Shown piece after piece: positions 30,195 to 49,559 of a stretch of 64,000 nt of DNA. Position 1 is the first letter of the stretch. Every line of letters starts with the position of its first letter. The DNA comes from Anaerobaca lacustris (lineage in GTDB: Bacteria; Planctomycetota; Phycisphaerae; Sedimentisphaerales; Anaerobacaceae): positions 62,001 through 126,000 of the forward strand of contig NZ_JASCXX010000012.1 in NCBI RefSeq assembly GCF_030012215.1, in the 5' to 3' direction. The position numbers were made by a program, and so were the translations under genes. A model generated the notes under the pieces. It saw only the letters and a list, made by a program, of their open reading frames with translations. It was not told the DNA's origin and ran no database searches.

Positions 30195-30201
30195 CCACGT
30201 T

Positions 30202-30278: not shown

Positions 30279-30836
30279 TCAGCGCGGGCGGACGTCGGCG
30301 GCGACGGTGTCCTGAACGGCCTTGGGACTGTAGATCTGGATCGTTGCGTCGAGCCGTGTGGTGTCCTGGTTCCTCTTGCGGATGTGCAGGCTGCCGATCT
30401 GGGCGACCGTCTCGGAGGACTCTTCCAGGGCCCGGAGCAGGCCAGCCAGTTGGGACAGGGTGACCCCTTCGAGCCCGATCTCGACGACGGTCTCGGAGTA
30501 TCCCGGGCGCGACGGGGGCGCATCGGTCTGCTGCATGGTCGCTACCGTCAGGTTCTGCTGCTCGGTCAGCGACTCCAGGAATGGCAGCAACTGGAAGTCC
30601 GGCGTCTGCCGGGCCACGCGCTCCTGTACGGCTTCGATCTGGCGGATGGACGCAAGGTACTCGGCGCTGCGCGCCTGGAGATCGCGGAGTTCGGCCCGCT
30701 TTTCCGGGAGGATGCGATTCAGAAGCCGGATGCGATCGTGCATCGGCCTGACGGTCACGGCATAGGTCGCCCAGACCGTCACGGCGACGACCACGGCGAT
30801 CCCCCACCGACGTTCTCTTCGAGTCAACTGGATCAT
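30279..30836 (-). CDS. gspM: Type II secretion assembly protein GspM (PilO-like)
   Basis: 185 residues. Short basic cytoplasmic tail, one transmembrane helix (12-28, WGIAVVVAVTVWATYAV), a coiled coil (about 33-75) and a C-terminal ferredoxin-like periplasmic domain, the layout of GspM/PilO. It joins GspL in the inner-membrane platform. Begins on the base next to the gspL stop; GGAGGG lies ahead. Last gene of the gsp operon. Confidence 0.75.
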   Translation of the reverse strand: MIQLTRRERRWGIAVVVAVTVWATYAVTVRPMHDRIRLLNRILPEKRAELRDLQARSAEYLASIRQIEAVQERVARQTPDFQLLPFLESLTEQQNLTVATMQQTDAPPSRPGYSETVVEIGLEGVTLSQLAGLLRALEESSETVAQIGSLHIRKRNQDTTRLDATIQIYSPKAVQDTVAADVRPR

Positions 30837-32309
30837 CTACTGCACCCTCCTTCCGGAAGACAGCGACAGGGTGAACCGTACGCGGCCCGTCTTGGCGTCC
30901 TTGCCCGGCTTGGGTTCATCGACGATCTCGATGCCGGGAATCTCCTCCAGCGTCCGCTGCCAGGCCGAGAGGACGGCGAACGAGCCGCACTGGCCTATCA
31001 CCCGGACCGAATCACCGGCAATGAGCACGTCGTCGAACTCCAGAGTGCCCTCCGTCGGGTGGTGGGCGCTGAACAGGCCCAGAATCTCCAGAGGGGTCCG
31101 GCTTCCCGGCTGAAACGACGCCAGCCATCCGCCGTCGCCGCGAAGCGAATCCAGCTTCTGTTGGAGCTGCGCCAACGGGCTCACGCACTTCTCATCGGGC
31201 AGCGTTCGCTCGAAGACGTCCTGGATTTGCGTTGTGACCTGGGCGTACTGCGACTCCAGCCGGGACAGATGCACGAACAGACCCCCGATCCAAACGACAA
31301 TCGTTGCGATCAGCAGGCCGCCGCACACGGCGAGTTCCTTTCTCAGATTCAGCGGGCTTCGCGTCTGGGCCGTGTGGGCACGCAGAAAATCGACGCAAAC
31401 GGATTCTCGCGGCAGGAGCTTGCGAAGGGCCAGTCCCTCCGCCAGGCAGATCGGCGACGCCCCATCGATTCCCTCGCCTCGCTGCATGCGGGCAAAGGGG
31501 TCGGCGAGGGTCACCCGACAGCCGGTGGCTTCCTGGATCGCCCCGGCCAAATGGCCCGCGATCGCCGACGGCGCCACGAGAAAGGCGCGAAGGTCGGCCT
31601 CCGCCTCGATGCCGAAGAGCTTTCGCCACGTGATCTCGATCTCTCGGCTGAGGACGTCCGTGACCTGTCGGCCGATGGATTCCTCGTCGCTGTCGCGGGA
31701 GATTCGCAGTGGGATGTTCCTGACCACGAGCAGGTTTCCGTCCTGGACCACCGCGAGGCTCAGGACCGATTCATCGACCACCAGGAGAAGGGCGACTCCT
31801 TCATTGCTGTCGGGATGGTTGAAGCCGACGGCCGTGTGGACCGCCGTGATGGGGGTCTCGATTCGCGTGGCCCGGACCTTGCCTTCCTCCAGCAGCGCCA
31901 GCCCTTCGGCCAGCAGATCGGCCGAGGTCGTTGCGACCAGTGCGCCGTGCCGCCCATTCGGCAGTTGCCGGGACGAGCAGACCTGGACGACCGCCTGCTC
32001 GGCGACGATGGGAAGGTCATCCCGCAGGCTCGACGCATCGCCGGCCTGAAGCCCTTGCAGGGTGGGCGCGTCGACCTCGACGTCGGCGAAGAAGATCGCA
32101 TGATGGGGAAGGCACGCGATGACCTCGGCGCGCCGGTCGAACCCCTGCTCGGCCGTCAACGCCCGCAGCATATCGATGGGGGAATCCGTGCTCCTGCGCG
32201 TCGGCCGGGCAAAGACCTTCTCCACGCAGAATCCACTGGCGGTCTGGGCGATCTGCACGGCCCGCAGATGAAAGCGTCCGATGTCGATGCCGATTGATCT
32301 TTTCACCAT
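30837..32309 (-). CDS. gspL: Type II secretion protein GspL (PilM/PilN-like)
   Basis: 490 residues. Residues 1-315 form an actin-like cytoplasmic domain beginning RSIGIDIGRFHLRAVQIAQT, very close to PilM. A transmembrane helix near 340-360 (VCGGLLIATIVVWIGGLFVHL) and a periplasmic ferredoxin-like domain follow, as in PilN/GspL. The protein couples the GspE ATPase to the pseudopilus platform. Start ATG at 32309 has GAGGTG; the frame continues to 32480 without a ribosome site. Followed directly by gspM. Confidence 0.8.
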   Translation of the reverse strand: MVKRSIGIDIGRFHLRAVQIAQTASGFCVEKVFARPTRRSTDSPIDMLRALTAEQGFDRRAEVIACLPHHAIFFADVEVDAPTLQGLQAGDASSLRDDLPIVAEQAVVQVCSSRQLPNGRHGALVATTSADLLAEGLALLEEGKVRATRIETPITAVHTAVGFNHPDSNEGVALLLVVDESVLSLAVVQDGNLLVVRNIPLRISRDSDEESIGRQVTDVLSREIEITWRKLFGIEAEADLRAFLVAPSAIAGHLAGAIQEATGCRVTLADPFARMQRGEGIDGASPICLAEGLALRKLLPRESVCVDFLRAHTAQTRSPLNLRKELAVCGGLLIATIVVWIGGLFVHLSRLESQYAQVTTQIQDVFERTLPDEKCVSPLAQLQQKLDSLRGDGGWLASFQPGSRTPLEILGLFSAHHPTEGTLEFDDVLIAGDSVRVIGQCGSFAVLSAWQRTLEEIPGIEIVDEPKPGKDAKTGRVRFTLSLSSGRRVQ

Positions 32310-32355
32310 GATCCCACCTCTTGTCCTTCCTCCGAAGCCAACACGGAGCGTCCTG

Positions 32356-33345
32356 CTAATTCGACTGCCGATACAGAAGAATATCGACATTTCCGGCCCC
32401 GGTGTTTCTTTGCACGAGGGCCTCAATTTCGCAGGTCCGATCTTCCACGCGTCCACGCGAAGTGACGCGGTAACAGGCATTTTTGGGTTTCACCTCGATG
32501 GCCTCTTTGACGGCCAGGAAGATGTTATCGGTCATTCCGGGCACGTCTCTCAGTTCGGCGACCGTCTCGAACGGTTTGACCTGTCGCCGCTGTACGATCA
32601 TCCGGGCCAGGGTCGCGTCCATGTGCTCGGAGAGCGACTCGATGACGAGCGGCGGGGCTGCGTTGATGTTGATTCGTCCGCTGCCGGTCGTCGTCAGCAG
32701 GTCGCGCAGGGCGGCGAAGGCCTCCGGCGTGACCCCCTTGACCCATTGCAGTTCCTCGATGGTGTCCATCGGCCCATTCTTGCAGCGGTAAGCGGGCGAG
32801 AGGGTCTGATAGTACTCGCTCTCGGCGCCTCGGCCGCCCGAATCCACGAACGACAATACCGTGACGTCGTCGTCCGGATCGATCCAGTCGATGACGGCCG
32901 CGACCACGCCGTATCCGATCCGGGCGGCCTCTTTGCGTCGGTTCAACAGGTCGATCAGCCGGAGCAGTTGGTCGATCCGCCGGCGGTTGAGCTGGCCGTT
33001 CTTATCCAGCAGCGAGTTGAGATTCAGTCGGCCGCTCTCATCCGTGACGGTGACCTCGAAGCGGCCGTCGCCGATGGGAAACGTCTCTTCGCCCGCGCGC
33101 AAGCCGGCGTATCGAGGGTCGCCCGTCACGTCGTTGGTGTCCGCGATGGCGGCGATCGCCAGGCTCAGCCCGGCCCGCGCATAGTTGAGCGCCCGTTCGG
33201 ATTGGCGGAAGCTCTCAGCCATCTCCAGGCTCGCGAGCGTCGTGCGGTGGAATGCGAACAGCAGCGCCGCCAGCAGCACGACCATGCCCAGGACGACGAT
33301 GAGAACGAACCCGTTCCGGCGGTGTCGGCATGCGCGGAGGCTCAT
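32356..33345 (-). CDS. gspK: Minor pseudopilin GspK
   Basis: 329 residues. The prepilin site is RRNG|FVLIVVLGMVVLLAALLF; as usual for GspK, position +5 is not Glu. The large extra alpha domain and the SGRLNLNSLLD and RININAAP motifs are typical of GspK. It caps the pseudopilus tip with GspI and GspJ. The start overlaps the gspJ stop (ATGA), with GAGGG ahead. Confidence 0.9.
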   Translation of the reverse strand: MSLRACRHRRNGFVLIVVLGMVVLLAALLFAFHRTTLASLEMAESFRQSERALNYARAGLSLAIAAIADTNDVTGDPRYAGLRAGEETFPIGDGRFEVTVTDESGRLNLNSLLDKNGQLNRRRIDQLLRLIDLLNRRKEAARIGYGVVAAVIDWIDPDDDVTVLSFVDSGGRGAESEYYQTLSPAYRCKNGPMDTIEELQWVKGVTPEAFAALRDLLTTTGSGRININAAPPLVIESLSEHMDATLARMIVQRRQVKPFETVAELRDVPGMTDNIFLAVKEAIEVKPKNACYRVTSRGRVEDRTCEIEALVQRNTGAGNVDILLYRQSN

Positions 33346-34076
33346 CGCGTTTCCCTCACGATCTTCCGCTCGGCCGTTCGACTCGCAATCGCCACGGTGG
33401 CGCCATATCGATGGGTGCGGCCCTTTTCATCGGCGACCGTCAGGCTCAGCCGCACGGCGCGGGGCAGGGTCCGGCTCGTCTGGCCGCTCCACTGGGGTCG
33501 CCATTGGAGGCCGTCGAAGAACTCGATGTCGACCTCCGAGACGTGCTGCAACACGGTTTGCCAGGGACCGGTTGAATCGTCCTGCCGCATCGTATCCAGG
33601 TGCGGCTCGCAGCGGATTGCCAGGGTCCCGAGGATCGGATCGTGTCGGTAGCGTATGCGGGCCAGTCCCTGGGGGCCGCTTGGTCCGCCTGCGACCCCGG
33701 CAGTGGTGATGAAGTCCAGCACCTCGCCGCCCGCCTTGCGGACGCCGCCGACAAACGTTGGGCGGGGCGTTTGTATCCGAATCTCACCGGCCTGCGGCAA
33801 CTCCTGCATAGCCTGGGCCCGACGGCCCGACGCCTCACGGGGTTCGGTGGCTTCGGGGTCTGCCGGCCGCTGATAGGCGCAGCGAAGCTGCCGTTCCATC
33901 AGGCGCAGGACAAGCTGCGTCCGCTGCGCGCACGTCAGGCGGCTGTCGTATATCTCCATCGACCGGCTCGTGGCGGCATAGCTGCCGTAAACCATCGAGA
34001 CGATGGTGGCGATCATCGCCAGGGCGACGAGCATCTCGATCAGGGTGAAGCCGGGATTATGGCGTCTTGCGTTCAT
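33342..34076 (-). CDS. gspJ: Minor pseudopilin GspJ
   Basis: 244 residues. Prepilin motif NPG|FTLIEMLVALAMIATIVSM with Glu at +5. The C-terminal beta-rich domain (LRLMERQLRCAYQ, then RYRHDPILGTLAIRC) fits GspJ. The ATG at 34076 lies 20 bases inside the gspI gene; a TTG at 34094 is an alternative. No ribosome site, so translation is probably coupled. Confidence 0.8.
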   Translation of the reverse strand: MNARRHNPGFTLIEMLVALAMIATIVSMVYGSYAATSRSMEIYDSRLTCAQRTQLVLRLMERQLRCAYQRPADPEATEPREASGRRAQAMQELPQAGEIRIQTPRPTFVGGVRKAGGEVLDFITTAGVAGGPSGPQGLARIRYRHDPILGTLAIRCEPHLDTMRQDDSTGPWQTVLQHVSEVDIEFFDGLQWRPQWSGQTSRTLPRAVRLSLTVADEKGRTHRYGATVAIASRTAERKIVRETR

Positions 34077-34479
34077 GGATTCGAGTGTCTGCAACGAGGG
34101 TCGTCATGGTGACAGTCTTCGGGTCCAACGACGGATTCCAGGTTACGGTGGTCGCCACTTCGCGCAGGCCTCTGGCCGTGGCGTCGCGGCCGCCGGGCCT
34201 GGCAACGTCTCGAACTTCGGTCGTCCATGTGAACGTCTGTCCGTTTCGTTCGACGGCGCCCGAGGTGCTTCCTTGCTTTGGAAATCCGCAGGCGAGGGCC
34301 TCGGCGATCTGCGCCTGGGCCACGAACACCGCCTCGGTGGTTGCCTGGGCGGCGTCCGCTGTGGCCGTGCTCAGCAGATGCAGTCGCAGCAGCCCCAGAA
34401 GTCCGATGGAGGCGACTGCCAGCGCGATCAGGACTTCGACGAAGGTGAACCCCCTGGATCTGGTTCGACAACGGCTCAT
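34057..34479 (-). CDS. gspI: Minor pseudopilin GspI
   Basis: 140 residues. Prepilin motif SRG|FTFVEVLIALAVASIGLLGL with Glu at +5, and the small size typical of GspI. GGAAGG stands before the ATG at 34479. In this operon it follows gspG directly; the usual gspH is absent. Confidence 0.75.
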   Translation of the reverse strand: MSRCRTRSRGFTFVEVLIALAVASIGLLGLLRLHLLSTATADAAQATTEAVFVAQAQIAEALACGFPKQGSTSGAVERNGQTFTWTTEVRDVARPGGRDATARGLREVATTVTWNPSLDPKTVTMTTLVADTRIHERKTP

Positions 34480-34515
34480 GGTCTGCCTTCCGATCAATCC
34501 CCGACGTGGGCGGCC

Positions 34516-34959
34516 TCAGTCCTGCATGTTCCAGGACTCGATGTCGGCATCGTCTCCGGTGCCGCCGTTCTCGCCGTCCTTGCCGTAGGACTTCAGGTCA
34601 TAGTCCTTGCTGTGGACGCCGGGGCTAATGTAGACGTATCGGTTGCCCCATGGATCGACCGGCATCGATTCGAGGTAGCCGTCGGCGTTGTAGCCCTTGA
34701 CGCCCGGATCGTTCACGAGGGCCTCGAGACCTTCGGAGGTGGTCGGAAAGCGGCCCGTGTCGGTCTTGAACAGGGCCAGCGCCGACTGAATGCTGCGGAT
34801 GTCGGCCTTGGCCTTGACCCGGCGGGCCTGGTCGGGCCGGCTCAGCATCTTCGGCATGACGATCGTGGCCAGCAGGCCCAGGATCACCACCACGATCATC
34901 AGTTCGATCAGGGTGAAGCCCCGTCGCGGGCCTATCGGATGAATATGTCGAGTTCGCAT
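34516..34959 (-). CDS. gspG: Major pseudopilin GspG
   Basis: 147 residues. Prepilin motif RRG|FTLIELMIVVVILGLLATI, then the GspG core KTDTGRFPTTSEGLEALV, DPWGNRYVYISPG and the calcium-binding C-terminal loop GENGGTGDDADIESWN. It forms the pseudopilus shaft that pushes folded substrates through the secretin. GGGAG precedes the ATG. Confidence 0.95.
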   Translation of the reverse strand: MRTRHIHPIGPRRGFTLIELMIVVVILGLLATIVMPKMLSRPDQARRVKAKADIRSIQSALALFKTDTGRFPTTSEGLEALVNDPGVKGYNADGYLESMPVDPWGNRYVYISPGVHSKDYDLKSYGKDGENGGTGDDADIESWNMQD

Positions 34960-34971
34960 GATGCGATCTCC

Positions 34972-36156
34972 CTACAAAGCCTGATTGATTTCGAAGATGG
35001 GCAGCAGGATCGACAAGACGATGAACCCCACGACGCCACCCATTAGCAGCAGGATCATCGGTTCGAGCAACGCGGTCAGTGTTCGCACCGTTGTCTCGAC
35101 TTCGCCATCGTACATCTCGGCGATGTTCAGCAGGCCGTCCTCGACGTTGCCGGCCATCTGTCCGGTCTCGATCACGTGAACGACCATCGGCGGAAACATC
35201 CCGGTGGCGCGGACGGCGTTGGCGATCGTCTCGCCTTTGTGGACGGCGTCCTTGATATGGTCGGCCGCCTCGGCGATCAGGCGGTTCTGGCTGATTCGCT
35301 GACTGATCTCGATGGCGCTGATGACGGGAATGCCGCTCTTCATCAGCGTCCCGAGCGTCCGGGTCAGTCGGGCCACTTCGAGTCGGAAGAACAGCGGGCC
35401 GAACAACGGCAGTCCGAGTCGTATCCGATCCATCCACAGGCGGCCGTCCTGCGTCCGGGCCAGCCCCATCAGGGCGGCTGTGGCGCCGAGCACCGCCACG
35501 GCGATGAGCACCCCATGGGCTTCGAAGAAACCGCTGACGCCCATGAGGATCCGGGTCGGCAAAGGCAGCTCCTGGTTCATCCTGACGAACAGTTCCGAGA
35601 TGCTCGGCACCACGAACGACAGCAGGAACAGGACCACGCCGACGGCCACGACCGTCATCATCGCCGGATAGGCGATGGCGGCTTTGACCTTGCCGGTCAA
35701 CTGCGCCCGTTTTTCGAGGATGTCCGCCAGGCGCGCCAGCACCGCTTCGAGAGCGCCGCCGGCCTCCCCGGCCGCCACCATGTTGACGAACAGCGCCGAG
35801 AACAGGCTTGGATGCCGGCCGAGAGCTTCGGCCAGACTGCTGCCGGCGTTCACGTCGTCGCGAACGCGCTCCACGATGGGCGCCAGTGGTTCGGTCGAGT
35901 GGCCCCAACGGACGCCGCGTTTCTTCGGCACGCACTGCATCTGCTCGACGAGGGCCGACAGCGCCGGCACCAGCGGCATCCCCGCGTGCAAAAGCGTGGA
36001 CAACTGCCGCGCCAGGCGGCCGAGGTCCTTCGTGCCCACCCGTCGCAGCAGGTCGTGCCCCTGCGTCCGATGGATGCGGCGCGGCGCGGTCGTCGGGCGG
36101 GCCGCGATGCCCGGGCTCTCGATCTGCGGTCGGATCTGTTCCTCAACGGTTGGCAT
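34972..36156 (-). CDS. gspF: Type II secretion inner-membrane platform protein GspF
   Basis: 394 residues. Two repeated GspF domains (around 45-170 and 250-385) and three membrane helices near 172-195, 220-240 and 365-388. The conserved LARQLSTLLHAGMPLVPALS and LMKSGIPVISAIEI signatures are present. It recruits the GspE ATPase. The start overlaps the gspE end by 14 bases, with GGAGGGGG ahead. Confidence 0.9.
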   Translation of the reverse strand: MPTVEEQIRPQIESPGIAARPTTAPRRIHRTQGHDLLRRVGTKDLGRLARQLSTLLHAGMPLVPALSALVEQMQCVPKKRGVRWGHSTEPLAPIVERVRDDVNAGSSLAEALGRHPSLFSALFVNMVAAGEAGGALEAVLARLADILEKRAQLTGKVKAAIAYPAMMTVVAVGVVLFLLSFVVPSISELFVRMNQELPLPTRILMGVSGFFEAHGVLIAVAVLGATAALMGLARTQDGRLWMDRIRLGLPLFGPLFFRLEVARLTRTLGTLMKSGIPVISAIEISQRISQNRLIAEAADHIKDAVHKGETIANAVRATGMFPPMVVHVIETGQMAGNVEDGLLNIAEMYDGEVETTVRTLTALLEPMILLLMGGVVGFIVLSILLPIFEINQAL

Positions 36157-37744
36157 GCGAGTCCCCCTCCGTACCGCCGTGGACGCTGTCCTGCGTGACG
36201 CGGTAGACTTCTTCGAGCGTCGTGACGCCGTCCACGACGCGGCGCAGGCCGTCCTGGCGGAGTGTCGTCATTCCCTTGGCGACCGCGGCGTCCTTGATCA
36301 CGTGCGCGCCGCGACGCTGGAGGATGAGGTCTTTGATCTGGTCATCGACGAGCATCAGCTCGAAGATGCCGACTCGCCCCTTGTATCCCGTCTGGAGGCA
36401 GTTTTCGCAGCCGTCGCCTTTGTACAACTGAGGATGACCATCGGCGAGCCTGCGCAGTTCGGTACTGATCTGCTCGGCGTCATGGGGCTGCCAGGCCTGT
36501 TTGCAGTCGGGGCAGATCACCCGCAGAAGTCGCTGGGCCATCACGCCGACGACGGACGAGGAGATCAGATACGGCTCGATGCCCATGTCGATCAGTCTCG
36601 TGACCGCCGAGGCCGCGTCGTTCGTGTGGAGCGTGCTCAACACGAGGTGGCCCGTCAGCGACGCCTGGATGGCGATCTCCGCCGTCTCCAGGTCGCGAAT
36701 CTCCCCGATCATGATGACATCAGGGTCCTGTCGGAGGATGTGGCGCAGGCAACTGGCGAACGTCAGCTCGATCTTCGGTCGAATCTGCATCTGCCCGATG
36801 CCGGGCAACTGGTATTCGACCGGGTCCTCTACGGTCAGGATGTTGCGCTCTTCATTGTTCAGCTCGTTCAACGCCGCATAGAGGGTCGTCGTCTTGCCGC
36901 TGCCGGTCGGGCCGGTCAGCAGAATGATGCCGTGGGAAATACCGATGAGGTCGCGAAAGACCCGCAGCATCTCTGGCCCAAAGCCCACGTCTTCCAGGCG
37001 GAACTCGCCTCGCCCCTTGTCCAGCAGCCGGAGCACGACGCGTTCGCCGCCGGCCGTGGGGATCACGGAGACGCGGATATCGACCAGTTCTTCGCCGATC
37101 CGCACGCGGCTCTGGCCGTCCTGCGGCAGACGATGCTCGGCGATGTTGAGATTGGCCATGATCTTCAGACGCGACAGGAGCGGCGCCGCCTGCTGCCGCG
37201 CCAGGCTCAGGACGTTGTGCAAGACGCCGTCGACGCGGAAGCGAATCTTCACCTCGGTTTCGTAGGGCTCGATGTGGATGTCGCTGGCCCGGCTGTGCAC
37301 CGCCTCGAACACGATCTTGTTGACCAGTTTGATCGCCGGGGCCTTGTTGGCGATGTTCAGCAGGTCCTCGGCGTGCGTTTGCACCGAACTGGCGCCGGCG
37401 CCGCTGTCGGGCGAGTAGGCTTTGGAGAACTCGTCGTCCTGGCCCCGCTCGCCGTCGGCAGCGTGGTAGTAGCACTGGCTGATGGCGTTCTCGATCTCCG
37501 GCGCCGGGCAGCGCACCCGAGGGCACACCTGGCCCAGGACGCCGACGATGGCGTCGTACGCCTCGACGTTGAGAATGTCCGCCAGGGCGACCGCCGTGGT
37601 GCCGTCCTCGAGCACGATCGGGATCGCACGCTGTTTCTTGAGGAACTCCAGCGGCAATCGTCGCACCAGGTCCGCGTTCACCTGCTCCGGAGCGATTCTC
37701 CAAAGCTGCGGAGCCTCTGTTCGTTCGGTCTGTTTCACGTCCAC
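36143..37744 (-). CDS. gspE: Type II secretion ATPase GspE
   Basis: 533 residues. The N-terminal GspE/PilB domain is followed by an ATPase core with Walker A GPTGSGKTTT (about 278-287), an Asp-box (TVEDPVEYQLPG), Walker B VIMIGEIRD and a His-box (LVLSTLHTNDA). The GspE zinc module CPDC...CENC is present. It powers pseudopilus assembly from the cytoplasm. Start: GTG at 37744, with AGGAGG exactly seven bases before; a TTG at 37747 is the alternative. Confidence 0.95.
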   Translation of the reverse strand: MDVKQTERTEAPQLWRIAPEQVNADLVRRLPLEFLKKQRAIPIVLEDGTTAVALADILNVEAYDAIVGVLGQVCPRVRCPAPEIENAISQCYYHAADGERGQDDEFSKAYSPDSGAGASSVQTHAEDLLNIANKAPAIKLVNKIVFEAVHSRASDIHIEPYETEVKIRFRVDGVLHNVLSLARQQAAPLLSRLKIMANLNIAEHRLPQDGQSRVRIGEELVDIRVSVIPTAGGERVVLRLLDKGRGEFRLEDVGFGPEMLRVFRDLIGISHGIILLTGPTGSGKTTTLYAALNELNNEERNILTVEDPVEYQLPGIGQMQIRPKIELTFASCLRHILRQDPDVIMIGEIRDLETAEIAIQASLTGHLVLSTLHTNDAASAVTRLIDMGIEPYLISSSVVGVMAQRLLRVICPDCKQAWQPHDAEQISTELRRLADGHPQLYKGDGCENCLQTGYKGRVGIFELMLVDDQIKDLILQRRGAHVIKDAAVAKGMTTLRQDGLRRVVDGVTTLEEVYRVTQDSVHGGTEGDSHANR

Positions 37745-37799
37745 CAATCAACCTCCTCGCCTGAAAACGGCCCGGGTGCAGGTTGCCTGACCCCGCGGG

Positions 37800-40103
37800 T
37801 CAGCGACCTTCCTCCAGAAGCGGACGCATCTGGTCCCTCTTCCTGTCTGTGATCTCCTGCAACTGCTCCGGGTCGGTCATGACGTGCGGCGTGATGAAGA
37901 TCAGCAGATTCGTCTTCTGCACGCGGTCGCGCTGCCATCGGAACAGGTTGCCGACCACGGGCACGTCACCGATCAGCGGGATCTGGTTCACGACGCGGGT
38001 CTTGTCGTCGCGAATCAGACCGCCGATGACGACGGTGTTGCCGCTGCCCATCGTCACGACCGTCTGGGCGCTGCGTTTGGCCGTCGTCGGCGTGTCCGAC
38101 GAGGCGGCGGTCACGCTGTCGATCAGCTTGGTGAACTCGCTGTCGATCTGGAGTCGCACCAGCCCGCTCTGACTGACGTGCGGCGTGATCTCCAGCGTGA
38201 TGCCGACGTCCTTGTACTCGTATTGCTTGATCACCGTGGGCGTCAGGAAGTCCGTGGTCTCGGTGACGCGCGACTGGACCACGAATGGGGTGTTTTCGCC
38301 GACGACGATCCTGGCCTTGCGATGGTTCGAGGTCAGCACGTGCGGGGTCGAAAGGATGTTGACCCCGGACTTCTTCTGGAGCGCCTGGAGGATCGCGCCG
38401 ATCTGAACGCCCGCGCCGGTGTCCTTCCACGCGCCGACCGCGAGACCTTCGAGGTCGCCGCTGAGGAAGTTGACGCGCGGGCCCAGGTTCGTCAGGCCGA
38501 AACCGCGGACGCTGCTGGAGATCGCCTCGTCGAGCGTGGCCCAATCGACGCCCAGCTCCTTCAGGGCTTCCTCGCTGACCTCCAGGATCGTCATCTCGAC
38601 CAGGACCTGCTCGCGCACGATGTCCAGCTTCTCGACGATCTGTGAGATCATGGCGAAATCCTGAGGCGACGCCACGATGATCAGCGAGTTCGTGCTTGCA
38701 TCGGCGGTGACCTGAATCGGCTGTCGGATGTCGACCGTGTCGGTCAGCCTCATGCCGGCCAGCGCCGCTTCGAGCGAGGGCGCCACCTCATTGGCGTCGG
38801 CGTTCCTCAGATAGGTCACATGGACGTTGTCGGCGCCGGTCGGACGCTCGACGTCGAGTTGTGCGACGAGTCTGCGGATTGTCTCGACGCTCTGTTCACC
38901 GCCGACCACGATCAGCGAGTTGGTTCGGGTATCGGGAAGGACTTTGGTGCTCTGGCCCTCAAGCTGGGCCGGCCGAGTCCGTCCGGGCGCAGGGGCGGCG
39001 GTGCGGCCTTCGTCCAGGATGCGCATGATCTGCTCGCTGAGCACCTGGGCGGAAGCGTGGGTCAACGGGAACAACAGGACGTTCTCCCGCGAGCCCTCGA
39101 CGTCGAGCTGCGCGACGATCTGTGCGATGTAGTGGATATTGGCGCTGGTGTCCGTGACCATGATCGAGTTGGTCCTCGGATACGTCGCCATCACCGCCCC
39201 CGTCGAGAGCAGAGGCTGGACGATCTGGCTGACCTCCGCCGCATCGGCGTATCGCAACGGCAGAATCTGCGTGGCCATCGCGTCGTTTCGCGGGATCGTT
39301 CCGGGGTCTGCGCCGATGCGAACTTGAATGTTCCGCCGGGTGGCTTCGGCCTTCGGGACGATTTTCACCACGTTGTCGGCCTCGACCGCGGCGTAGCCGG
39401 CCACGTCGAGAATCGACTGAAGGAACGGGTAGATGTCACCCAGCCGAATCGGGGTCGGCGACATCACCGTTACGGTGCCGCTGACGCTCTGATGCGGGAT
39501 GAAGTTGATGCCCGTGATCTCCCCAATGGTCTTCAGCACCATGCGGATGTCCACGTCCTCGAAGTTGACCTGCACCATCTCGTCCTGGCGGTGCGTCAGG
39601 TCGGGGGCGGGGGATGCGACGTTTTGCCCAGGGGTCGTGAACGGTGGTGTCTCGGCCGCATTCGCAGTCGTGTCTTCTTGCGGCGGTGTTCTGTCCCTCG
39701 GCAGGCGGACCGCCTCGGACGCCTCGGCTAGAATCGCCCTCTGTTGCCACGAGGCCGCTGAAACGCCCTGGCTTGTTGCCACCGCCGGCTGGAAGGCGAG
39801 GATGTCCTGCGGCGGCGTTCGCGGCGGGGCGACCACCGGAGCACGAGGCTCTGCGACGGGCGCCGACACGGTCGGCGATCCACTCGCCGGCCAGGGAGTC
39901 TTCTCTCGGGCGTACGTACGCCGTTGGATGGGACTGACCTCGCTGGCCGAGACCGCCTGGGTGCGTCCTCCGCAGCCGGCGCAGCTCAGTGCCAGGATGC
40001 CGATGGCGATGACGGCCGGACCGAAGCGCCCAGCGGCCGCCGCTCGTCTGAGCAGCCGGCGGGTCGGAACGTTGTTCCGGGTATTGTGACGTTTCGTATT
40101 CAA
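37800..40103 (-). CDS. gspD: Type II secretion outer-membrane secretin GspD
   Basis: 767 residues. N-terminal export signal (GPAVIAIGILALSCAGC, possibly lipidated). Pro-rich linker (about 60-165), N0 domain (VQVNFEDVDIRMVLKTIGEI), repeated N1-N3 domains, then the C-terminal secretin pore from VLVEMTILEVSEEALKELGV to VVIGGLIRDDKTRVVNQIPL. The extended linker before N0 is longer than in enteric GspD. Starts at TTG 40103, which has GGAG six bases ahead; an upstream TTG at 40130 overlaps gspC. Confidence 0.9.
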   Translation of the reverse strand: MNTKRHNTRNNVPTRRLLRRAAAAGRFGPAVIAIGILALSCAGCGGRTQAVSASEVSPIQRRTYAREKTPWPASGSPTVSAPVAEPRAPVVAPPRTPPQDILAFQPAVATSQGVSAASWQQRAILAEASEAVRLPRDRTPPQEDTTANAAETPPFTTPGQNVASPAPDLTHRQDEMVQVNFEDVDIRMVLKTIGEITGINFIPHQSVSGTVTVMSPTPIRLGDIYPFLQSILDVAGYAAVEADNVVKIVPKAEATRRNIQVRIGADPGTIPRNDAMATQILPLRYADAAEVSQIVQPLLSTGAVMATYPRTNSIMVTDTSANIHYIAQIVAQLDVEGSRENVLLFPLTHASAQVLSEQIMRILDEGRTAAPAPGRTRPAQLEGQSTKVLPDTRTNSLIVVGGEQSVETIRRLVAQLDVERPTGADNVHVTYLRNADANEVAPSLEAALAGMRLTDTVDIRQPIQVTADASTNSLIIVASPQDFAMISQIVEKLDIVREQVLVEMTILEVSEEALKELGVDWATLDEAISSSVRGFGLTNLGPRVNFLSGDLEGLAVGAWKDTGAGVQIGAILQALQKKSGVNILSTPHVLTSNHRKARIVVGENTPFVVQSRVTETTDFLTPTVIKQYEYKDVGITLEITPHVSQSGLVRLQIDSEFTKLIDSVTAASSDTPTTAKRSAQTVVTMGSGNTVVIGGLIRDDKTRVVNQIPLIGDVPVVGNLFRWQRDRVQKTNLLIFITPHVMTDPEQLQEITDRKRDQMRPLLEEGR

Positions 40104-40119
40104 GATGCGCTCCGCTCTT

Positions 40120-41001
40120 CTACAGATCAAATGACAGGTCTCTGGCCTTGCCGTTGCGCAGCAACTGGATGCTGATCGTGGGCTGTGTTCGGGCCTTCTG
40201 GAGGACCTGAAACGCTTTCTGTTTGCTGTCGAGGCTTTGACCGTTGACGGTCTGTACGATGTCGCCGTTTCGCAGTCCGACGGCGGCGGCCAGAGGCCCT
40301 TGCTCCAGCCCGCTGATCCTCAGTCCTTCGACGTGTCCGTTCTTGACGTACGGCTCGATCGTTGCCGTACGAAATAGATCCTCCACGTACCCGAGCCGGG
40401 CGGACGGCGGAGAGGGGGGCTTGGCAGCCGCAAGGGATGGGGGCGTGCTGACATCGGCCGCGTCGCTTACGACGGATTCGGCGGGGCCTTTCGGAACGCG
40501 AGCGGCGTGCAGGAACAGCACCTTCGTCCGTCCGTTGTGGGTCAGCAGGATTCGGTCCGACTCGATGGCCTCAATCGTTGCGGAGGCAACGGTGTCGCCG
40601 ATCTTATAGGGGCTGGCGATGCGTGTGTTCGCGTCTTCGATAATGGCTCGGCTGGTGGTCGGGCCGCCTGCCACGACGCCGACGAGTCGCAGCCCCAGCG
40701 CCTCGGCCGATGGCATGGCGTTGGCGCTCGACGGCATGGACGAGTCCGCCGACCGGTCCGACGGGTTCGTCGTGCCGAAGATGTTGCTGTCGACAAGGAC
40801 CGAATAATCCATGTTCTGCCGGGCATTGGGCAGAGGTTCGGTCCGGCCGGACGCTCGTTCGTCACCCGATACGGCCCTCGGCTTCAATCCGGGCGCGGGC
40901 TTGGATGGGGTCCAGATCGCCGCGATCGCCACATACAGCAGCACGGCGATCAGCAGGACCCTGGCCCCCCAGAACAGCCTCGATATCTGCCTGTCGTTCA
41001 T
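40120..41001 (-). CDS. gspC: Type II secretion protein GspC with PDZ domain
   Basis: 293 residues. One membrane helix (13-30, ARVLLIAVLLYVAIAAIW), the periplasmic homology region (YSVLVDSNIFGTTNP to ILLTHNGRTKVLFL) that contacts the secretin, an Ala/Pro/Ser linker and a C-terminal PDZ domain (ISGLEQGPLAAAVGLRNGDI). First gene of the gsp operon, 196 bases after the CPBP protease gene. Start ATG 41001; a TTG five codons earlier is possible. Confidence 0.85.
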   Translation of the reverse strand: MNDRQISRLFWGARVLLIAVLLYVAIAAIWTPSKPAPGLKPRAVSGDERASGRTEPLPNARQNMDYSVLVDSNIFGTTNPSDRSADSSMPSSANAMPSAEALGLRLVGVVAGGPTTSRAIIEDANTRIASPYKIGDTVASATIEAIESDRILLTHNGRTKVLFLHAARVPKGPAESVVSDAADVSTPPSLAAAKPPSPPSARLGYVEDLFRTATIEPYVKNGHVEGLRISGLEQGPLAAAVGLRNGDIVQTVNGQSLDSKQKAFQVLQKARTQPTISIQLLRNGKARDLSFDL

Positions 41002-41197
41002 GGTTGTCTTTCTCAAAAAGGCGTACGTTCTTCGTTGCCTGGTTTATCGTCCGGGTAGGGGGGCCACTTGATGCGCAGCCGCAGGTGTGCGGCGGATGGC
41101 CGGGCAAAATGGTCGGTCCTGTTTGCAGCGTCGTTTTATCGGACGGATGCGGCGCGTCATGTGCGCAGCGTCCGATACACTTCGATGGGTGTCGGCG

Positions 41198-41941
41198 TCA
41201 GCCGAGCGTCAGCGCCATGATGCCGTAGCCGACGTTGGCGAGCCCGTGGAACAGCACGGGCGCCAGCAGCGAACGGGTGCGGAGGAAGAGCCAGGCGAGG
41301 ACCAGGCCCGGCAGGAACGTCAGGAGGGAGATCGCCCGGCCCTGGACAACGACGTGGGCCAACGCGAAGCAGCCCGCCGACGCGAGGATGACCGCCGCGC
41401 GCTGCCACGTCCCCCCGCCCTCATGCCGGCCTTTGAAAAGACGCATCACATTGGCCTGCACGTAGCCACGGAAGAACACTTCTTCAGCGACGGCCACATA
41501 AAGAAACTGGTAGAGCAGCCAGGCCGGCCACCCGCCTTGTCCGGCGATGACCGGTCGCAGCGGAATCGGCAGATGCCATCGCGCCGCAATCCACAGACCG
41601 AGCAGGGGGATGGGCAGGACGCAGAGGCACACGGCGCAGACGGTTCGCAGTGCCCTGCCGGCATGGTCGGCGTCGAGGCCGATGCGAGGGAACTCGCGCC
41701 GCGCGATCCAGGTGGGAACCAGGGCGGCCGCCACCAGGATGCCCGGAATCAGCAGCCACTGAAATGCGGCCGCCGACGTGGCGGCAAGGCCGCGTATGGC
41801 GGCCAGCGCGGCCCCGGTGACCAGCGCCGTTTCGATGGCCAGCCGGCCCGGCCGCTCGCGTCCCGAATCGAGAAGACGGCCGGCCGGCTCGAAGAGTGAG
41901 GTCGAGCCGGCCGGGCGGCGTTGTGCGCATGAGCCACTCAT
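41198..41941 (-). CDS. CPBP-family glutamic intramembrane protease, probable C-terminal sorting enzyme
   Basis: 247 residues with several membrane helices. The catalytic pattern of the CPBP (Rce1/Abi) family is complete: AEEVFFRGYVQ (E153, E154, R158), CFALAHVV (H196) and FHGLANVG (H232, N236). Family members cut membrane-embedded C-termini; a subset (MrtX, MrtJ and relatives) processes MYXO/JDVT/Synergist-CTERM signals. The ATG lies 7 bases after the stop of the 1484-residue protein whose tail looks like such a signal, so the two are almost certainly cotranscribed. Assignment to a particular Mrt type is not possible by eye. Confidence 0.8.
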   Translation of the reverse strand: MSGSCAQRRPAGSTSLFEPAGRLLDSGRERPGRLAIETALVTGAALAAIRGLAATSAAAFQWLLIPGILVAAALVPTWIARREFPRIGLDADHAGRALRTVCAVCLCVLPIPLLGLWIAARWHLPIPLRPVIAGQGGWPAWLLYQFLYVAVAEEVFFRGYVQANVMRLFKGRHEGGGTWQRAAVILASAGCFALAHVVVQGRAISLLTFLPGLVLAWLFLRTRSLLAPVLFHGLANVGYGIMALTLG

Positions 41942-41948
41942 TCGAGAG

Positions 41949-44900
41949 CTATCCTTGGATTGTCTCGATAGAATGTCGCCTCCTTCTGTCCCGACGCCTC
42001 AGAACGACGACGGCGATGGCCACGATGACGTACGGCGCCAGCAGTTCCTTCGGTGAGCCGTCGCCTCTGCCGGAGATCGAGCAGCCACCACCGCTGCCGC
42101 CGCCGCCACCGTCACTGCCTGGCACCAGGGGCGAGGTGTCGGCCACCACGTAGAACGGCGTGAAGTGTGTCGTCTTGAATCGCAGGGCGTTGAGATTGGG
42201 GGCGATGACGAGATTCTCGATGTCCGTGATGCCGCACTGCGTCAACGCTCCGGTGAGCGAATCGTACCAGTAGGGTTTCACGCCGCCCGCTCCACTGAAG
42301 CGGTAGGGGATCGTCACCGTGACCGGAATGTCGAAGTCGACGCCGCTGGGTCCGAAATCATAGCTCCCGAGGCAGTCGGCCGGCGCGACGGGAGGGTTCA
42401 GGATCCTGGAGATCGAGATCCACGTATCTGTTCTGCAGGCGCGAGCGGGCACCACGATGGACACGTCGTCAGGCTCCTGAATGGCGGTCGGATCTGTGCC
42501 GACCGTTGCGCCGATCGAGGCGACAACCTGCTTTGCATCCAACGGGTTGGGGTCGATGAAGGTGGTTGCGGCGAAATAGATCTCCGTATTCGAGCCTCGC
42601 GCATCCGCCCACACCAGGTAGGGATTGCCATAGCCGTCGATGCCGATGGCCGGCTCACCCTGGCCGGAGTTCGTCCGGTCGTCGCCCACGAAGATGTTGG
42701 TCCCGACCGAGTCGGGTCCCAGTTCCGCCACGAACAGATCGGTGTCGGTCGGTCGCCGCTGCGCATGACGCCCGTCTTGCCAGCAGGCGAAGACTCTCGC
42801 GCCGCCGGCGCATACGATCGCCGGCGCGAGCTGGTCGGCGCCGGAGGTGTCGTCGATGACGCTCACGCCGCTGATGGGGCTGTCGGGAAGACCCGGCAGC
42901 GCCGCATAATAGACGTCGGTGTTTCCCGGCGCGTCATCTACCCATAGCAGGTGAAGGATGGAGGCCTCTCTGTCGATGGCGATGACAGGAGCGGTCTGCT
43001 GGCTGTTCGTCGTGACGATGGGGATGTTGGCCCAGCCCGTCGTTCCGGACGAGGACCCGTAGAGGTCGGCTCGCCCTCGTCTCATGTCGGTCCAGACCAC
43101 AAAGGCGATGTTGCTTGCATCGACGTCGACGGTCGGAGTGATCTGGTCGGCCACGTCGGTGGTCAGACGGGAGGTCAGGGTATCGACGAACATGTTGGCC
43201 GAGCTGATGGCCCAGATGTCGGCGTTGCCGTCTCGGTCATCCTGCCAGGCGATGTAGACGCGGCTGGGCGACCGGGTGTCGGCGGCGATGGCCGGGTGGG
43301 TCTCGTTTCCATCGGAGTCCGTCACCTGGACGGGGCGGGACCACGTGGTCCCGTTGTCCGACGAGGCCGCGGCGAAGAGATCCCAGTTGCCGCGCTGCCG
43401 GTCCTGCCAGACGACGTAGAGAATCCCATCGTTGTCCCGCGCGATCTTGGGATGGCATCGATCGCCCGGGGCGGCGGTGATGGCGACGGGAGCTTCGAAC
43501 GTGTCAGCGCCGGCGGGCATCCTGCTGATATAGATATCTCGGTTGCCTTCGCTGCCGCTGCACCAGACGGCCCAGATCGTGCCGGCCGGATCGCTGACGG
43601 TGTCGGGCCGGCCGTTCGGCCCGGAAACGCCGGAGCCGACGCTGACGCCTCGATTGTTCCCAAACGCGCGCATTTCCGTCGTGAACGAATAGGAATGTGT
43701 GCCCATGACGTTGCCCGCGCGGTCCGCGGCATTGACCTTTACCTCGACCGCATGATCGAAGCGGAACGGTTCGTTTGCCTGATACATGAACCGGTAGTCG
43801 TTGGACGCTCCGGACCGGCTGCATCGTCCGGTCGCGCTCTCGTAGACGGGTGTATCGCCCTGGTAGACGACGGCGCCGTCCACGCGAATCACGACGGACT
43901 CGGGGGCCACGCCTCGGCCCGTATCGGTCACGTGCAGCGTCACGAGGTTGTTCAGTGACACCTGGATCGCCTCAGGCTGAGGCGTGTGTCGGGCCACCGT
44001 CGGCGCGGTGCTGTCTGGACCGGTGCTCGCGACGAAGATGGTCGCCGTCCGGCTGTCCTGAAGATCTCCGTCGCTGGCCACGAAGGTGATGTGGTGGGGA
44101 CCGACCTGCGAGGCCGAGGGCGTCCAACTGAAGGTACCGCCTGCGAGCGTGGCGCCGGCGGGCAGCCCGCTGGCCGAGTAGGCGATGGGGTCGCCGTCGG
44201 GATCGCTGGCCGTGACGTTGAAGGTCAGTGCATGATCCTGGTCGACGGACCGGTCGCCGATCTCGCTGAGGACCGGCGCCCTGTTGACCTTGATCACGGT
44301 GATCGTGATGGTCTGGGAGTCCTGGTTCTGGCCGTCGCTGGCGATGAACGTCACCTGATAGTTTCCGGCCTGGCCGTGCGCGGGCGTCCAACGGAAAGTC
44401 CGGCTGGAGAAACTCGCCCCGCTGGGCAAACCCGTGGCCGAGTACGTGATCGGGTCGCCGTCCGGATCGCTGGCGCTGATGGAAAACGTCAACGTCGCAT
44501 TCTCGTCGACCGATTTGTTCCCGATCGCGGCAAGCGTCGGTTTCCTGTTGGAACCCTCGACGGTGATCGTGACCGTCTGGGCATCGCTCAGACGCCCGTC
44601 CGTCACCCGGAACGTGACCTGGTGGGTCCCGACCTGGTTCTGGCTCGGGGTCCACGTGAAGGTCTGTCCCGTGAACGTCGCGCCGCTCGGCAGGCCGGTC
44701 GCCGAATACGTCAGGGGGTCGCCGTCCGCGTCGTCAGCCGTCACGGTGAAGCGCAACTGCTCGCCGATGGTTGCCGTGTAATTGCCCAGCGTTCTCAAAA
44801 CGGGTGGCCGGTTTGTTGCAGTGCCTGCTCTGTATTCGTAGGCTCCGAGATCCGGATCGGCGTTGTCTGCGTCCATCCGAGGGAACCCTTCGAGGCAATA

Positions 44901-46403
44901 GGGAGAGGCGTTGAGCGACGTGCCGGCGTTGATCGCAATGGCCCCGGGGGCCAGTCGAAAGGCCGAGTCGAGGCTGGGCGTCGTTACGTTGGTGTCGAAT
45001 GCCTGGGCAAAGGACCCGCTGCCGACGAAGAACGTGCCGGGTGTCTCGAAGTGCGTGTCACCGAAGGGGGCCCGTGCGTTGTAGCTGGTGCAGATGAGGA
45101 TCGAGTTGGCGCCCAGCGGCTGCGATTGGAAGTTGAGTTTCCCGATGGTTAAATTCCACATGAGATTGTGGTCCTCCTGGACCCCGGCATCGACCAGCGA
45201 TTCGCCGATGCCCACGATGCCCAGAAGGATGTTGTTGTGAATCCTGATGTTCTGGCCGGTCCCCTCCGGGTCGAGGCCGAACGTGACGGTGCCCGCGTAT
45301 CGCCATCGGCCCGACGAGGCCGGGGTATCTCTCCATTTTGAAACGAACGTGTTGTTCCGGAAAACGAAGTTGTGTCCGATATGGTTGGCGAAGATCCCGG
45401 TGGACACGTTGGAGCCGTAGATCAGATTGCCTTCGCAGAGGATATTGGAGTACCCTCCCGGGGGCACGCCTCCCGTATTTGCGGCGTTCTGATAGAATCG
45501 AATGCCACCGGAGCCGCCGTAGCCCCGGATCACATTGCCCCGGATTGTCATATTGCTGTTGCGGATGGACAAGCCCGAGCCGTGGGGATTGCCGATTCCT
45601 CGGTATTCTGCGATGTTGTTGTACTCTACGAGGATGTTGTCGTTCTTCAGGTCGGTCACGAACCGCAGCAGTGACGAGTTGATCTTCGTGGCCGTGTTGC
45701 GCCGAATGACAAGACCCGATCGGATCCTTCCGCCGGCCTGGGCGGCCATTGAGACCTGGGTGATGGTGCAGTTCTCGATCAGGACATCAGACACATCCGC
45801 GTTCGTACCGGTCACACTGATGCCAATGTTCGTGATCTTGCTGTTGTCCTGGTCGTCCCACTGTCCGGTGACGGTGAGATTCGTCATTTTGACGTGGGAT
45901 GCATCGGTTACGCCGACTCCGTACGTTCCCGATCCTCCGCTCTGGCATTGGATGCTGACCCCGTCAAATTGCATATAGCAGCGATCCATGTCTGCCACTC
46001 GCAGACCTGTGAAGACCGGGGTGTGCCCGGCGTCCGCCGTGAACACGATCGCCTGCTCCCAATTCGTTCGGGCCGAAGCGATTCCGGCTAACGATACCGT
46101 TCCGTAGCTGCCATTGCGCAGATAGACGGTGCTGCCGGCGGCCGCATTGGCGGCCGCATGCTGCACGGTTCTCCACGGAGAACCGGTCGAACCATCGCGA
46201 TCATCGTTGCCGCCCGTCGGATCGACATAATAGGTTCGGCCTTGTGCGACCCCGCTCGCCGAGAGGCCGATGCTAACGAGGAGCAGGGCGAGAAGGACCG
46301 TCGGATATGGCGCTATCGCCTCCTTCCGACCGCGATGAATACGAGCGGACTCCCCACGGATGATCGTTCGATCGACCGACGCAAATCCTGTTCTGTAAAA
46401 CAT
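41949..46403 (-). CDS. Giant surface beta-helix protein with Ig-like repeats and C-terminal sorting signal
   Basis: 1484 residues. Signal peptide after a long basic n-region (hydrophobic core about 35-52). Modules: parallel beta-helix (55-530, TYYVDPTGGNDDRDGSTGSP); three tandem Ig-like domains of about 92 residues (535-805, each with ASDPDGDPITYSATGLPSGA-like cores); an Ig-like domain; sialidase/BNR-like propeller repeats (about 925-1290); and a beta-sandwich resembling choice-of-anchor U. The tail is a Gly-rich linker, Cys1441, a hydrophobic stretch (about 1453-1468) and RRRDRRRR: a MYXO/JDVT-CTERM-like tripartite signal. GGGGGA precedes the ATG. Probably a cell-surface adhesin or polysaccharide-binding protein. 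Confidence 0.85.
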   Translation of the reverse strand: MFYRTGFASVDRTIIRGESARIHRGRKEAIAPYPTVLLALLLVSIGLSASGVAQGRTYYVDPTGGNDDRDGSTGSPWRTVQHAAANAAAGSTVYLRNGSYGTVSLAGIASARTNWEQAIVFTADAGHTPVFTGLRVADMDRCYMQFDGVSIQCQSGGSGTYGVGVTDASHVKMTNLTVTGQWDDQDNSKITNIGISVTGTNADVSDVLIENCTITQVSMAAQAGGRIRSGLVIRRNTATKINSSLLRFVTDLKNDNILVEYNNIAEYRGIGNPHGSGLSIRNSNMTIRGNVIRGYGGSGGIRFYQNAANTGGVPPGGYSNILCEGNLIYGSNVSTGIFANHIGHNFVFRNNTFVSKWRDTPASSGRWRYAGTVTFGLDPEGTGQNIRIHNNILLGIVGIGESLVDAGVQEDHNLMWNLTIGKLNFQSQPLGANSILICTSYNARAPFGDTHFETPGTFFVGSGSFAQAFDTNVTTPSLDSAFRLAPGAIAINAGTSLNASPYCLEGFPRMDADNADPDLGAYEYRAGTATNRPPVLRTLGNYTATIGEQLRFTVTADDADGDPLTYSATGLPSGATFTGQTFTWTPSQNQVGTHQVTFRVTDGRLSDAQTVTITVEGSNRKPTLAAIGNKSVDENATLTFSISASDPDGDPITYSATGLPSGASFSSRTFRWTPAHGQAGNYQVTFIASDGQNQDSQTITITVIKVNRAPVLSEIGDRSVDQDHALTFNVTASDPDGDPIAYSASGLPAGATLAGGTFSWTPSASQVGPHHITFVASDGDLQDSRTATIFVASTGPDSTAPTVARHTPQPEAIQVSLNNLVTLHVTDTGRGVAPESVVIRVDGAVVYQGDTPVYESATGRCSRSGASNDYRFMYQANEPFRFDHAVEVKVNAADRAGNVMGTHSYSFTTEMRAFGNNRGVSVGSGVSGPNGRPDTVSDPAGTIWAVWCSGSEGNRDIYISRMPAGADTFEAPVAITAAPGDRCHPKIARDNDGILYVVWQDRQRGNWDLFAAASSDNGTTWSRPVQVTDSDGNETHPAIAADTRSPSRVYIAWQDDRDGNADIWAISSANMFVDTLTSRLTTDVADQITPTVDVDASNIAFVVWTDMRRGRADLYGSSSGTTGWANIPIVTTNSQQTAPVIAIDREASILHLLWVDDAPGNTDVYYAALPGLPDSPISGVSVIDDTSGADQLAPAIVCAGGARVFACWQDGRHAQRRPTDTDLFVAELGPDSVGTNIFVGDDRTNSGQGEPAIGIDGYGNPYLVWADARGSNTEIYFAATTFIDPNPLDAKQVVASIGATVGTDPTAIQEPDDVSIVVPARACRTDTWISISRILNPPVAPADCLGSYDFGPSGVDFDIPVTVTIPYRFSGAGGVKPYWYDSLTGALTQCGITDIENLVIAPNLNALRFKTTHFTPFYVVADTSPLVPGSDGGGGGSGGGCSISGRGDGSPKELLAPYVIVAIAVVVLRRRDRRRRHSIETIQG

Positions 46404-47735: not shown

Positions 47736-47765
47736 CCCCCAAGTCATTGCGGGCAATCCCAGAGA

Positions 47766-49510: not shown

Positions 49511-49559
49511 CGAGACGAATGGCGCCGGTGGGCCGGGGTGCCGACGGAAGGGGACAAGA

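Follow-up and report, generated by a model that had tools for sequence, protein, structure and literature searches.

A conserved Cys tail, a CPBP protease and a type II secretion operon in planctomycetes: a probable myxosortase-type sorting system

Rhombosortase is a serine rhomboid, unlike the glutamic CPBP proteases, and the GlyGly-CTERM signal is not known to contain a Cys. The rhombosortase/GlyGly-CTERM system (PMC3237569) resembles the locus described here in its tail-processing membrane protease and, according to PMC11980579, in surface proteins that depend on the type II secretion system (T2SS). For the sorting of Cys-containing tails by a CPBP protease, the one experimental test known to us concerns MrtX of Myxococcus xanthus (PMC11980579). 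In that paper, MrtX cuts TraA in a Cys-dependent manner, TraA without its tail is released through the T2SS, and lipidation of the Cys in the MrtX system is still a proposal; the experiments concern only MrtX among the Mrt functions named as known. Here, we analyze a stretch of 64,000 nucleotides from the planctomycete Anaerobaca lacustris (the window), in which the genes for a large surface protein with a Cys tail, a CPBP protease and a T2SS follow one another. The cassette, found here in one order of Phycisphaerae-type planctomycetes, probably encodes a Cys-tail sorting system of the myxosortase type that is linked to a T2SS operon.

The window belongs to a genome of 5.73 Mb in 117 contigs (G000; other genomes and loci are referred to by G and L numbers). 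The cassette genes lie in line on the minus strand, gspC to gspM running from 41016 down to 30279:

41949..46403, minus strand: surface protein gene, 1484 residues, with Ig-like repeats, a weak BNR-like part and the Cys tail; homologues found
41961..42104, minus strand: predicted C-terminal sorting tail of the GGGC...FLLPY...RDRR family, Cys1441 codon at 42081-42083; hidden Markov model (HMM) A1 and alignment
41198..41941, minus strand: CPBP (Rce1-like) glutamic intramembrane protease, myxosortase-like, 247 residues; PF02517 67.6 bits, Mrt_core 81.1 (cut-off 100), predicted fold
40120..41016, minus strand: gspC; NF041515 126.9 bits, cut-off 150
37800..40130, minus strand: gspD, secretin; TIGR02517 487.6 bits, over cut-off
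36143..37747, minus strand: gspE, ATPase; TIGR02533 652.7 bits, over cut-off
34972..36156, minus strand: gspF; TIGR02120 364.2 bits, cut-off 424
34516..34959, minus strand: gspG, major pseudopilin; TIGR01710 156.4 bits, over cut-off
34057..34497, minus strand: gspI-like, minor pseudopilin; PF02501 21.3 bits, cut-off 25; N_methyl 32.3
33342..34094, minus strand: gspJ; PF11612 48.2 bits, over cut-off
32356..33345, minus strand: gspK; NF037980 165.5 bits, over cut-off
30837..32480, minus strand: gspL-like; PF12693 22.6 bits, cut-off 29.6, and position
30279..30836, minus strand: gspM; PF04612 28.8 bits, cut-off 27.8

GspD, GspE, GspG and GspK thus exceed their NCBIfam cut-offs, with GspC and GspF below theirs, and GspJ and GspM exceed their Pfam cut-offs, with GspI and GspL below; the four NCBIfam members share an operon with C, F, I, J, L and M, which identifies a T2SS. 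The CPBP gene begins 7 bases after the stop of the surface protein gene. From the protease to gspC there are 181 bases to the TTG start of the open reading frame list and 196 to the next in-frame ATG, the latter being the distance given in an earlier note on this DNA. A scan of this gap for promoters and terminators found none on the coding strand and one terminator-like site on the opposite strand, where 0.6 were expected.

The window protein ends ...GSGGGCSISGRGDGSPKELLAPYVIVAIAVVVLRRRDRRRRHSIETIQG, consisting of a Gly-rich linker, Cys1441, a membrane span and RRRDRRRR, exactly as the earlier note had read it, gene coordinates and length included. The same ending was found in the proteins encoded upstream of the protease in related genomes. 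In an alignment of 25 such cassette tails, including that of the window, the Gly-rich linker is followed by the Cys, at least a dozen residues, a span from about FLLPY and a basic end that mostly includes an Asp, giving the motif GGGCSxSP...FLLPY...RDRR; the Cys and the Pro of PY are invariant (25/25). HMM A1, built from a set that includes the window tail, detects this tail with 73.3 bits and an E of 8.7e-20 (G000:C12:103961-104104).

None of the NCBIfam CTERM models matched the window tail, either at E 1 or at E 10. JDVT-CTERM (NF033191) was weakly matched by 16 of the 25 tails (best E 0.00028), and the one match that was inspected closely covers the Gly-Cys stretch only. Membership in JDVT-CTERM was rejected, as the window tail has no match and the closely inspected one reaches 14.7 bits where 27 are required. 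Of the MYXO-CTERM models (TIGR03901, TIGR03382), a match was seen for one of the 25 tails at E 3.7, below the cut-off, and for the window tail there was none; PEP-CTERM, GlyGly-CTERM and Synerg-CTERM models matched none of the tails in this NCBIfam search, in which the HMMER filters drop most very weak matches. The earlier note had regarded the lack of a match at curated cut-offs, which is what was found, as an argument against its proposal. Yet the tail is itself a conserved family, so that the failed match points to a candidate new sorting signal. The sequence marks of a Cys-tail sorting system, namely an invariant Cys, a span, a basic end and an adjoining CPBP protease, are all present. At the other end of the proteins, a hydrophobic N-terminal segment was detected in 25 of 29 tail proteins by a scan based on hydropathy only (12-residue mean of at least 2.1), with no signal-peptide predictor; of the other four, L035 and L047 reached 1.7, L063 is cut by the contig start and L115 was masked.

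The protease passes the PF02517 test (threshold 22.4 bits) and possesses the complete Glu-Glu, Arg, His, His, Asn set that is catalytic in CPBP/Rce1-like enzymes, as the earlier note had stated; the residues E153, E154, R158, H196, H232 and N236 are invariant in an alignment of 32 sequences. It does not reach the cut-off of Mrt_core (NF040914) or of any individual myxosortase model (bits/cut-off: MrtX 40.5/180, MrtC 64.5/195, MrtP 86.5/250, MrtZ 56.5/325, MrtS 68/130, MrtJ 56.3/75, MrtA 15.1/200), MrtP giving the highest score. Nevertheless, Mrt_core, MrtP, MrtC, MrtS and MrtJ are each matched at E <= 1e-10 by all 32 aligned relatives, with a best E of 4.6e-27 for Mrt_core. For an AlphaFold2 model made from a 13-row input (mean pLDDT, the predicted local distance difference test score, 81.8), the best alignment was with the SagB-SpdC complex, chain A (6u0o; taken as SpdC from the entry title), at Z 15.9 over 195 residues and 3.5 A. 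Rce1 (4cad) followed with Z 13.8 over 187 residues at 3.4 A, and no further entry exceeded Z 5.0. In a plain Foldseek search with the model, Rce1 ranked first, though only at E 0.03. The predicted fold is of the Rce1/CPBP type. Fold and catalytic residues are alike between this enzyme and the Rce1/CPBP family (PF02517, 4cad, 6u0o chain A), whereas substrates and gene context differ. In a tree of the protease core, 44 planctomycete rows of the clade lie on one side of a weakly supported branch (base 90/0). G000 carries one protease of this cassette clade and three other CPBP genes.

As described in PMC11980579, the MrtX/MYXO-CTERM system is similar in its CPBP protease, its three-part Cys tail with span and Arg cluster and its export through the T2SS, which is predicted here. 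It differs in that the cassette tail has no match at the MYXO-CTERM cut-off and the protease scores 40.5 bits where the MrtX model requires 180, in that M. xanthus has 35 tail proteins according to the same source, as compared to 1-3 per genome here, and in that the present protease lies in line with a T2SS operon, in another phylum. The two-gene MrtJ/JDVT-CTERM pair, as described in that paper, shares with the cassette a Cys-tail protein that adjoins its CPBP protease. There, however, the neighborhood comprises just two genes, whereas here further substrates are encoded elsewhere, and both models stay below cut-off (MrtJ 56.3 of 75 bits; JDVT-CTERM 14.7 of 27, on the Gly-Cys stretch of one case). 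In NCBIfam release 20.0, neither the cassette tail nor the protease is above any cut-off, and in the literature surveyed, as far as its available parts extend, no described Cys-tail/CPBP sorting system wired to a T2SS in planctomycetes was found. The principle is known; as far as these sources show, this tail, its host lineage and its linkage to a T2SS operon are undescribed. The joint disappearance of tail and protease, described below, suggests a new form of an established route for mounting proteins on the bacterial surface. The cassette provides a testable model for the mounting of very large surface proteins in planctomycetes; the tail family may also be used for annotating planctomycete surface proteins.

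The link between tail and protease was analyzed in a main sample of 119 genomes, consisting of G000 and its relatives, in which tails were accepted at E <= 1e-7; eight tail rows with E 0.01-0.05 were dropped, which removed G087, G088 and G091. The protease was found in 36 and the tail in 34 genomes, both being present in 30, the protease alone in six, the tail alone in four and neither in 79; the tails total 48, with 1-3 per genome. A class sample of 397 genomes, somewhat less sensitive because fewer candidates were scored per genome, contained 24 genomes with both, three with the protease only, three with the tail only and 367 with neither, and no match was found outside the order in this sample. 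With kinship ignored, the Fisher p value for the pairing is 4e-32 in the class sample and 1e-10 within the window's family f1 (26/5/4/37 of 72 genomes). Because the tail model was built from neighbors of the protease, the overlap is biased upward; tails that do not adjoin a protease, and the many genomes with neither element, are less affected. The tail-protease pairing is well supported.

Gene order was surveyed at 36 protease loci, counting gspC within 1.5 kb on the same strand and the end of a tail protein within 3 kb upstream. The protease is followed by gspC in 28 of the 34 loci with enough sequence (not in G044, G112, G105, G034, G040 and G042, although in G040 gspC does come after a second protease piece) and preceded by a tail protein in 24 of 30 (not in G014, G012, G060, G056, G112 and G040). 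The complete order of tail protein, protease and gspC, whose conservation the earlier note had proposed to check, was found in 19 of the 28 loci for which both flanks were available. The figures of 28 of 34 and 24 of 30 mark the arrangement as more than chance. G071 has a second cassette (L071, contig 191), in which a tail protein is accompanied by protease fragments and T2SS genes, its intact protease being encoded on contig 202.

The region that precedes the tail provides natural controls. A search with the 148 residues before the tail (the body) in the 119 genomes found a match in 39. In G010, G075 and G092, which have no protease, the body continues for only a few tens of residues past the TTHF motif, without span and without Cys. 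In G075 and G092 gspC follows directly after this tail-less body, and neither a protease nor a protease remnant was found between the two; in G010 the stretch around the body contains no T2SS genes. In G084 the body frame stops right after KTTHF and is followed by a tail remnant, protease remnants and open gspC-gspM frames. This tail remnant, in which a Tyr occupies the Cys position, scores 13.6 bits, where none of the 600 frames obtained by shuffling mononucleotides 200 times exceeded 6.7, and the protease remnants lie in two frames with 30.7 and 20.0 bits, as compared to 4.0 for the best shuffle. The G084 state could partly be an assembly error, though the neighboring genes are open. G075, G092 and G084 do not group in a GspE+F+G tree of 29 loci, in which the well-supported branches force at least two state changes and the best tree has three; loss, as opposed to original absence, is certain for G084 only. 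Tail and protease disappear together. The pair beside T2SS genes that the earlier note had pointed out is hence kept in related genomes and lost jointly, and the bodies left beside a T2SS amount to a natural deletion experiment.

The cassette tail is not the only one in its genome. A second tail protein on contig 2 (198123-198260) matches the model with E 2.3e-19, as compared to 8.7e-20 for the cassette tail, and relatives have up to three; the one-substrate system proposed by the earlier note was rejected on these grounds. The frame ends in the tail at 19 of the 20 tail loci that have no detected adjoining protease, the twentieth, on G018 contig 548, having the tail internal to its frame. This locus (L216) carries a near-exact copy of the G018 cassette tail in a longer frame, followed by YD-like repeats as judged by eye, and may be a fusion or an assembly chimera. 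Four distant tail proteins that were compared differ in domain make-up: the Ig-like and ZU5 domains of L109 and L112 are shared with the cassette type, InlB B-repeats accompany ZU5 in L110, and L114 has eight InlB B-repeats. For the window protein, a profile search found Ig-like repeats (He_PIG, Big_9) over cut-off, while no beta-helix model reached its threshold. The beta-helix that the earlier note had assigned to it therefore applies to some of the relatives, Beta_helix being over cut-off in L037, L110, L112 and L114 and not in L109. In G000 itself (L109 2706-11521, contig 2), the second tail protein is flanked by a heparinase-like gene and by an exosortase, which lies about 0.7 kb after it.

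In the proposed mechanism, the large proteins would cross the inner membrane by Sec, consistent with the N-terminal hydrophobic segment, and would be halted there by the conserved C-terminal span. The CPBP protease would recognize the GGGC...PY...RDRR tail, with which it is paired by co-occurrence, gene order and joint decay, and would cut at or just after the invariant Cys. A lipid on this Cys, perhaps added by Lgt, would keep the cleaved protein anchored, and the adjoining T2SS would carry it across the outer membrane. Substrates would be few per genome (1-3 were found), one usually being encoded in the cassette. By analogy with MrtX/MYXO-CTERM, we infer cleavage near the Cys, and on the same analogy transport across the outer membrane by the T2SS appears likely, while a lipid on the Cys is somewhat favored. 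If so, G075, G092 and G084 would freely secrete the tail-less bodies encoded next to their T2SS.

The protease might instead cut the tail without any lipid step and release a soluble T2SS cargo, which would make it a maturation or shedding protease and not an anchoring sortase. CPBP proteases in general only cut, no lipidating enzyme was recognized in the cassette, and Lgt is present in a single copy, which is no proof of a Cys lipid. However, the Cys is invariant in 25/25 cassette tails, whereas cutting alone needs no Cys, and the genomes that lost the protease also lost the tail, a tail-less protein being soluble even in the absence of a protease; this explanation is unlikely. The pattern could also reflect the shared descent of one operon, the tail being a mere membrane anchor and the protease linked but unrelated, as all genomes are related, many come from one family and the counts are not independent. 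We consider this very unlikely: a plain anchor need not keep Cys and PY motif, proteins far from the cassette bear the tail almost only where the protease exists (with four exceptions), and the order of body and T2SS persists without tail and protease in loci that do not group. Exosortases, finally, might process the tails, with the CPBP protease as a T2SS accessory. Four are encoded in G000, among them the one close to the second tail protein; an exosortase occurs in six of the 20 stretches around distant tail loci (L109, L111, L112, L113, L116 and L128), and in at least nine genomes (G000, G002, G005, G015, G016, G028, G035, G036 and G105) the contig of the cassette carries one at a distance of 22-38 kb. 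On the other hand, 113 of the 119 genomes have exosortases, among them 74 of the 79 that lack both tail and protease, and in G042, where tail and protease are present, no exosortase was detected, so that the presence of an exosortase does not predict the tail. The 37 stretches surrounding protease loci yielded no exosortase, the tail has no PEP-CTERM match, and tail and CPBP gene decay together. An exosortase was thus rejected as the tail-processing enzyme, and this is the least probable of the explanations considered.

Apart from these exosortases near tails, several further observations weigh against the preferred reading of a Cys-tail sorting system wired to a T2SS. G012, G014, G029, G034, G040 and G112 have a protease without a detected tail. 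In G014 a protein body runs off the contig, with no tail protein in the 4.7 kb upstream of the protease locus; the G034 protease is truncated at a contig edge, and that of G040 is encoded in two pieces. There is no clear assembly excuse for G012, G029 and G112, the G029 contig beginning 1.5 kb before the protease gene. Conversely, a tail without a detected protease was found in G001, G021, G054 and G063. The contig with the best GspK starts within the T2SS operon, downstream of the expected protease position, in G001, G021 and G063, and one tail of G054 ends 57 bases from the contig start. The tail-protease pairs of G044, G105 and G042 have no adjoining T2SS, L130 has neither a tail nor a T2SS within 10 kb of its protease, and L131 has no tail. 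The protease pieces of G040 (contig 132; L068, L256) are about 2.4 kb apart with a transposase-like frame, identified by eye, between them, and no tail was found in the genome.

A set of 67 CPBP loci of other lineages (L142-L208) was probed with the T2SS proteins of the window, a search that divergent systems may escape. L143 (9555-20064), from a record titled Nitrospira japonica metagenome-assembled genome, has a T2SS operon, a Cys-tail subtilase and a CPBP protease within about 10 kb. Its T2SS comprises a GspE piece, GspF (356.6 bits, cut-off 424), GspG (179.5, over cut-off), pseudopilin-like frames, GspK (163.7, over cut-off), an L-like frame and GspN (80.6, over cut-off). The operon is followed immediately, and on the same strand, by a 766-residue subtilase (PF00082 202 bits, fn3) that ends SSGGGGGGGCSIGSTQNTTTAFADTAVLLIPLIILLIVKRRTN; beyond this, on the opposite strand, lies a protease of 175 residues that scores 79.2 bits with MrtS (cut-off 130) and 71 with Mrt_core (cut-off 100). 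L143 thus resembles the cassette in the closeness of the three parts and in a protease that matches Mrt models below cut-off. It differs in the strand of the protease, which lies at the other end of the cargo gene, in the subtilase-fn3 cargo and in the tail, where PY and RDRR are missing and for which no model gave a match. To our knowledge, this arrangement has not been described in print. L143 shows the three parts together in another lineage, so that their linkage, which the earlier note had pointed out in a planctomycete, is not solely planctomycete; as a single locus, it allows no statistic. Two T2SS-probe matches after the protease of L167 were rejected as a T2SS, being PilT/PilU-type pilus ATPases (503 and 449 bits). 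In L179 a single GspK-like piece was matched about 8.7 kb away, and in L158, in a relaxed search only, two short pieces resembling GspG; the probes matched in none of the other 63 loci.

Searched with the tail model, L142-L208 gave one weak match, in L148 (2-238; record titled Deltaproteobacteria), whose tail GGGSGCSVVSDASAGTSAVNFLLPMMVFGLGIMFRRLRRK scores 22.8 bits and lies about 3.1 kb before a CPBP protease. In L142 (10629-16919; record titled Oligoflexales), the protein directly downstream of the CPBP protease, with a frame of 2097, has a tail over the MYXO-CTERM cut-off (22.9 bits versus 20).

A further, tentative reading, which we hold to be rather doubtful, is that the T2SS of the order is largely dedicated to proteins with one new Cys tail, that sortase, cargo and machine form one inherited unit, and that L143 is a second unit built separately. 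GspK reaches at least 100 bits, a threshold picked after the list was seen, in 33 of 40 genomes with protease or tail and in two of the 79 without; G092, one of these 79, also has the T2SS operon. At E <= 0.001, however, GspK matches occur in 118 of the 119 genomes, 17 being over the curated cut-off. So many matches indicate that other T2SS-like or pilus-like machines exist, and the nine GspK-like matches in G000 lower the probability of a dedicated T2SS, as another T2SS-like machine may be present. If the T2SS were dedicated, loss of sortase and tail would leave the machine in place and convert its anchored cargo into a freely secreted protein.

Several neighboring genes were also recorded. 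Downstream of gspM lies a putative zinc metallopeptidase (29133-30230, minus strand; PF15887 29.4 bits, cut-off 27), which is also found 3' of gspM in G001 with 84% identity. An exosortase is encoded about 1.6 kb past the window end (G000:C12:127639-128409). On the other side of the surface protein gene, an exopolysaccharide-like cluster (46923-64000, plus strand), most frames of which were judged by eye, heads away from the cassette; its first gene (46923-47735) encodes a free-standing EpsI/DUF3485 protein (PF11984 48.7 bits).

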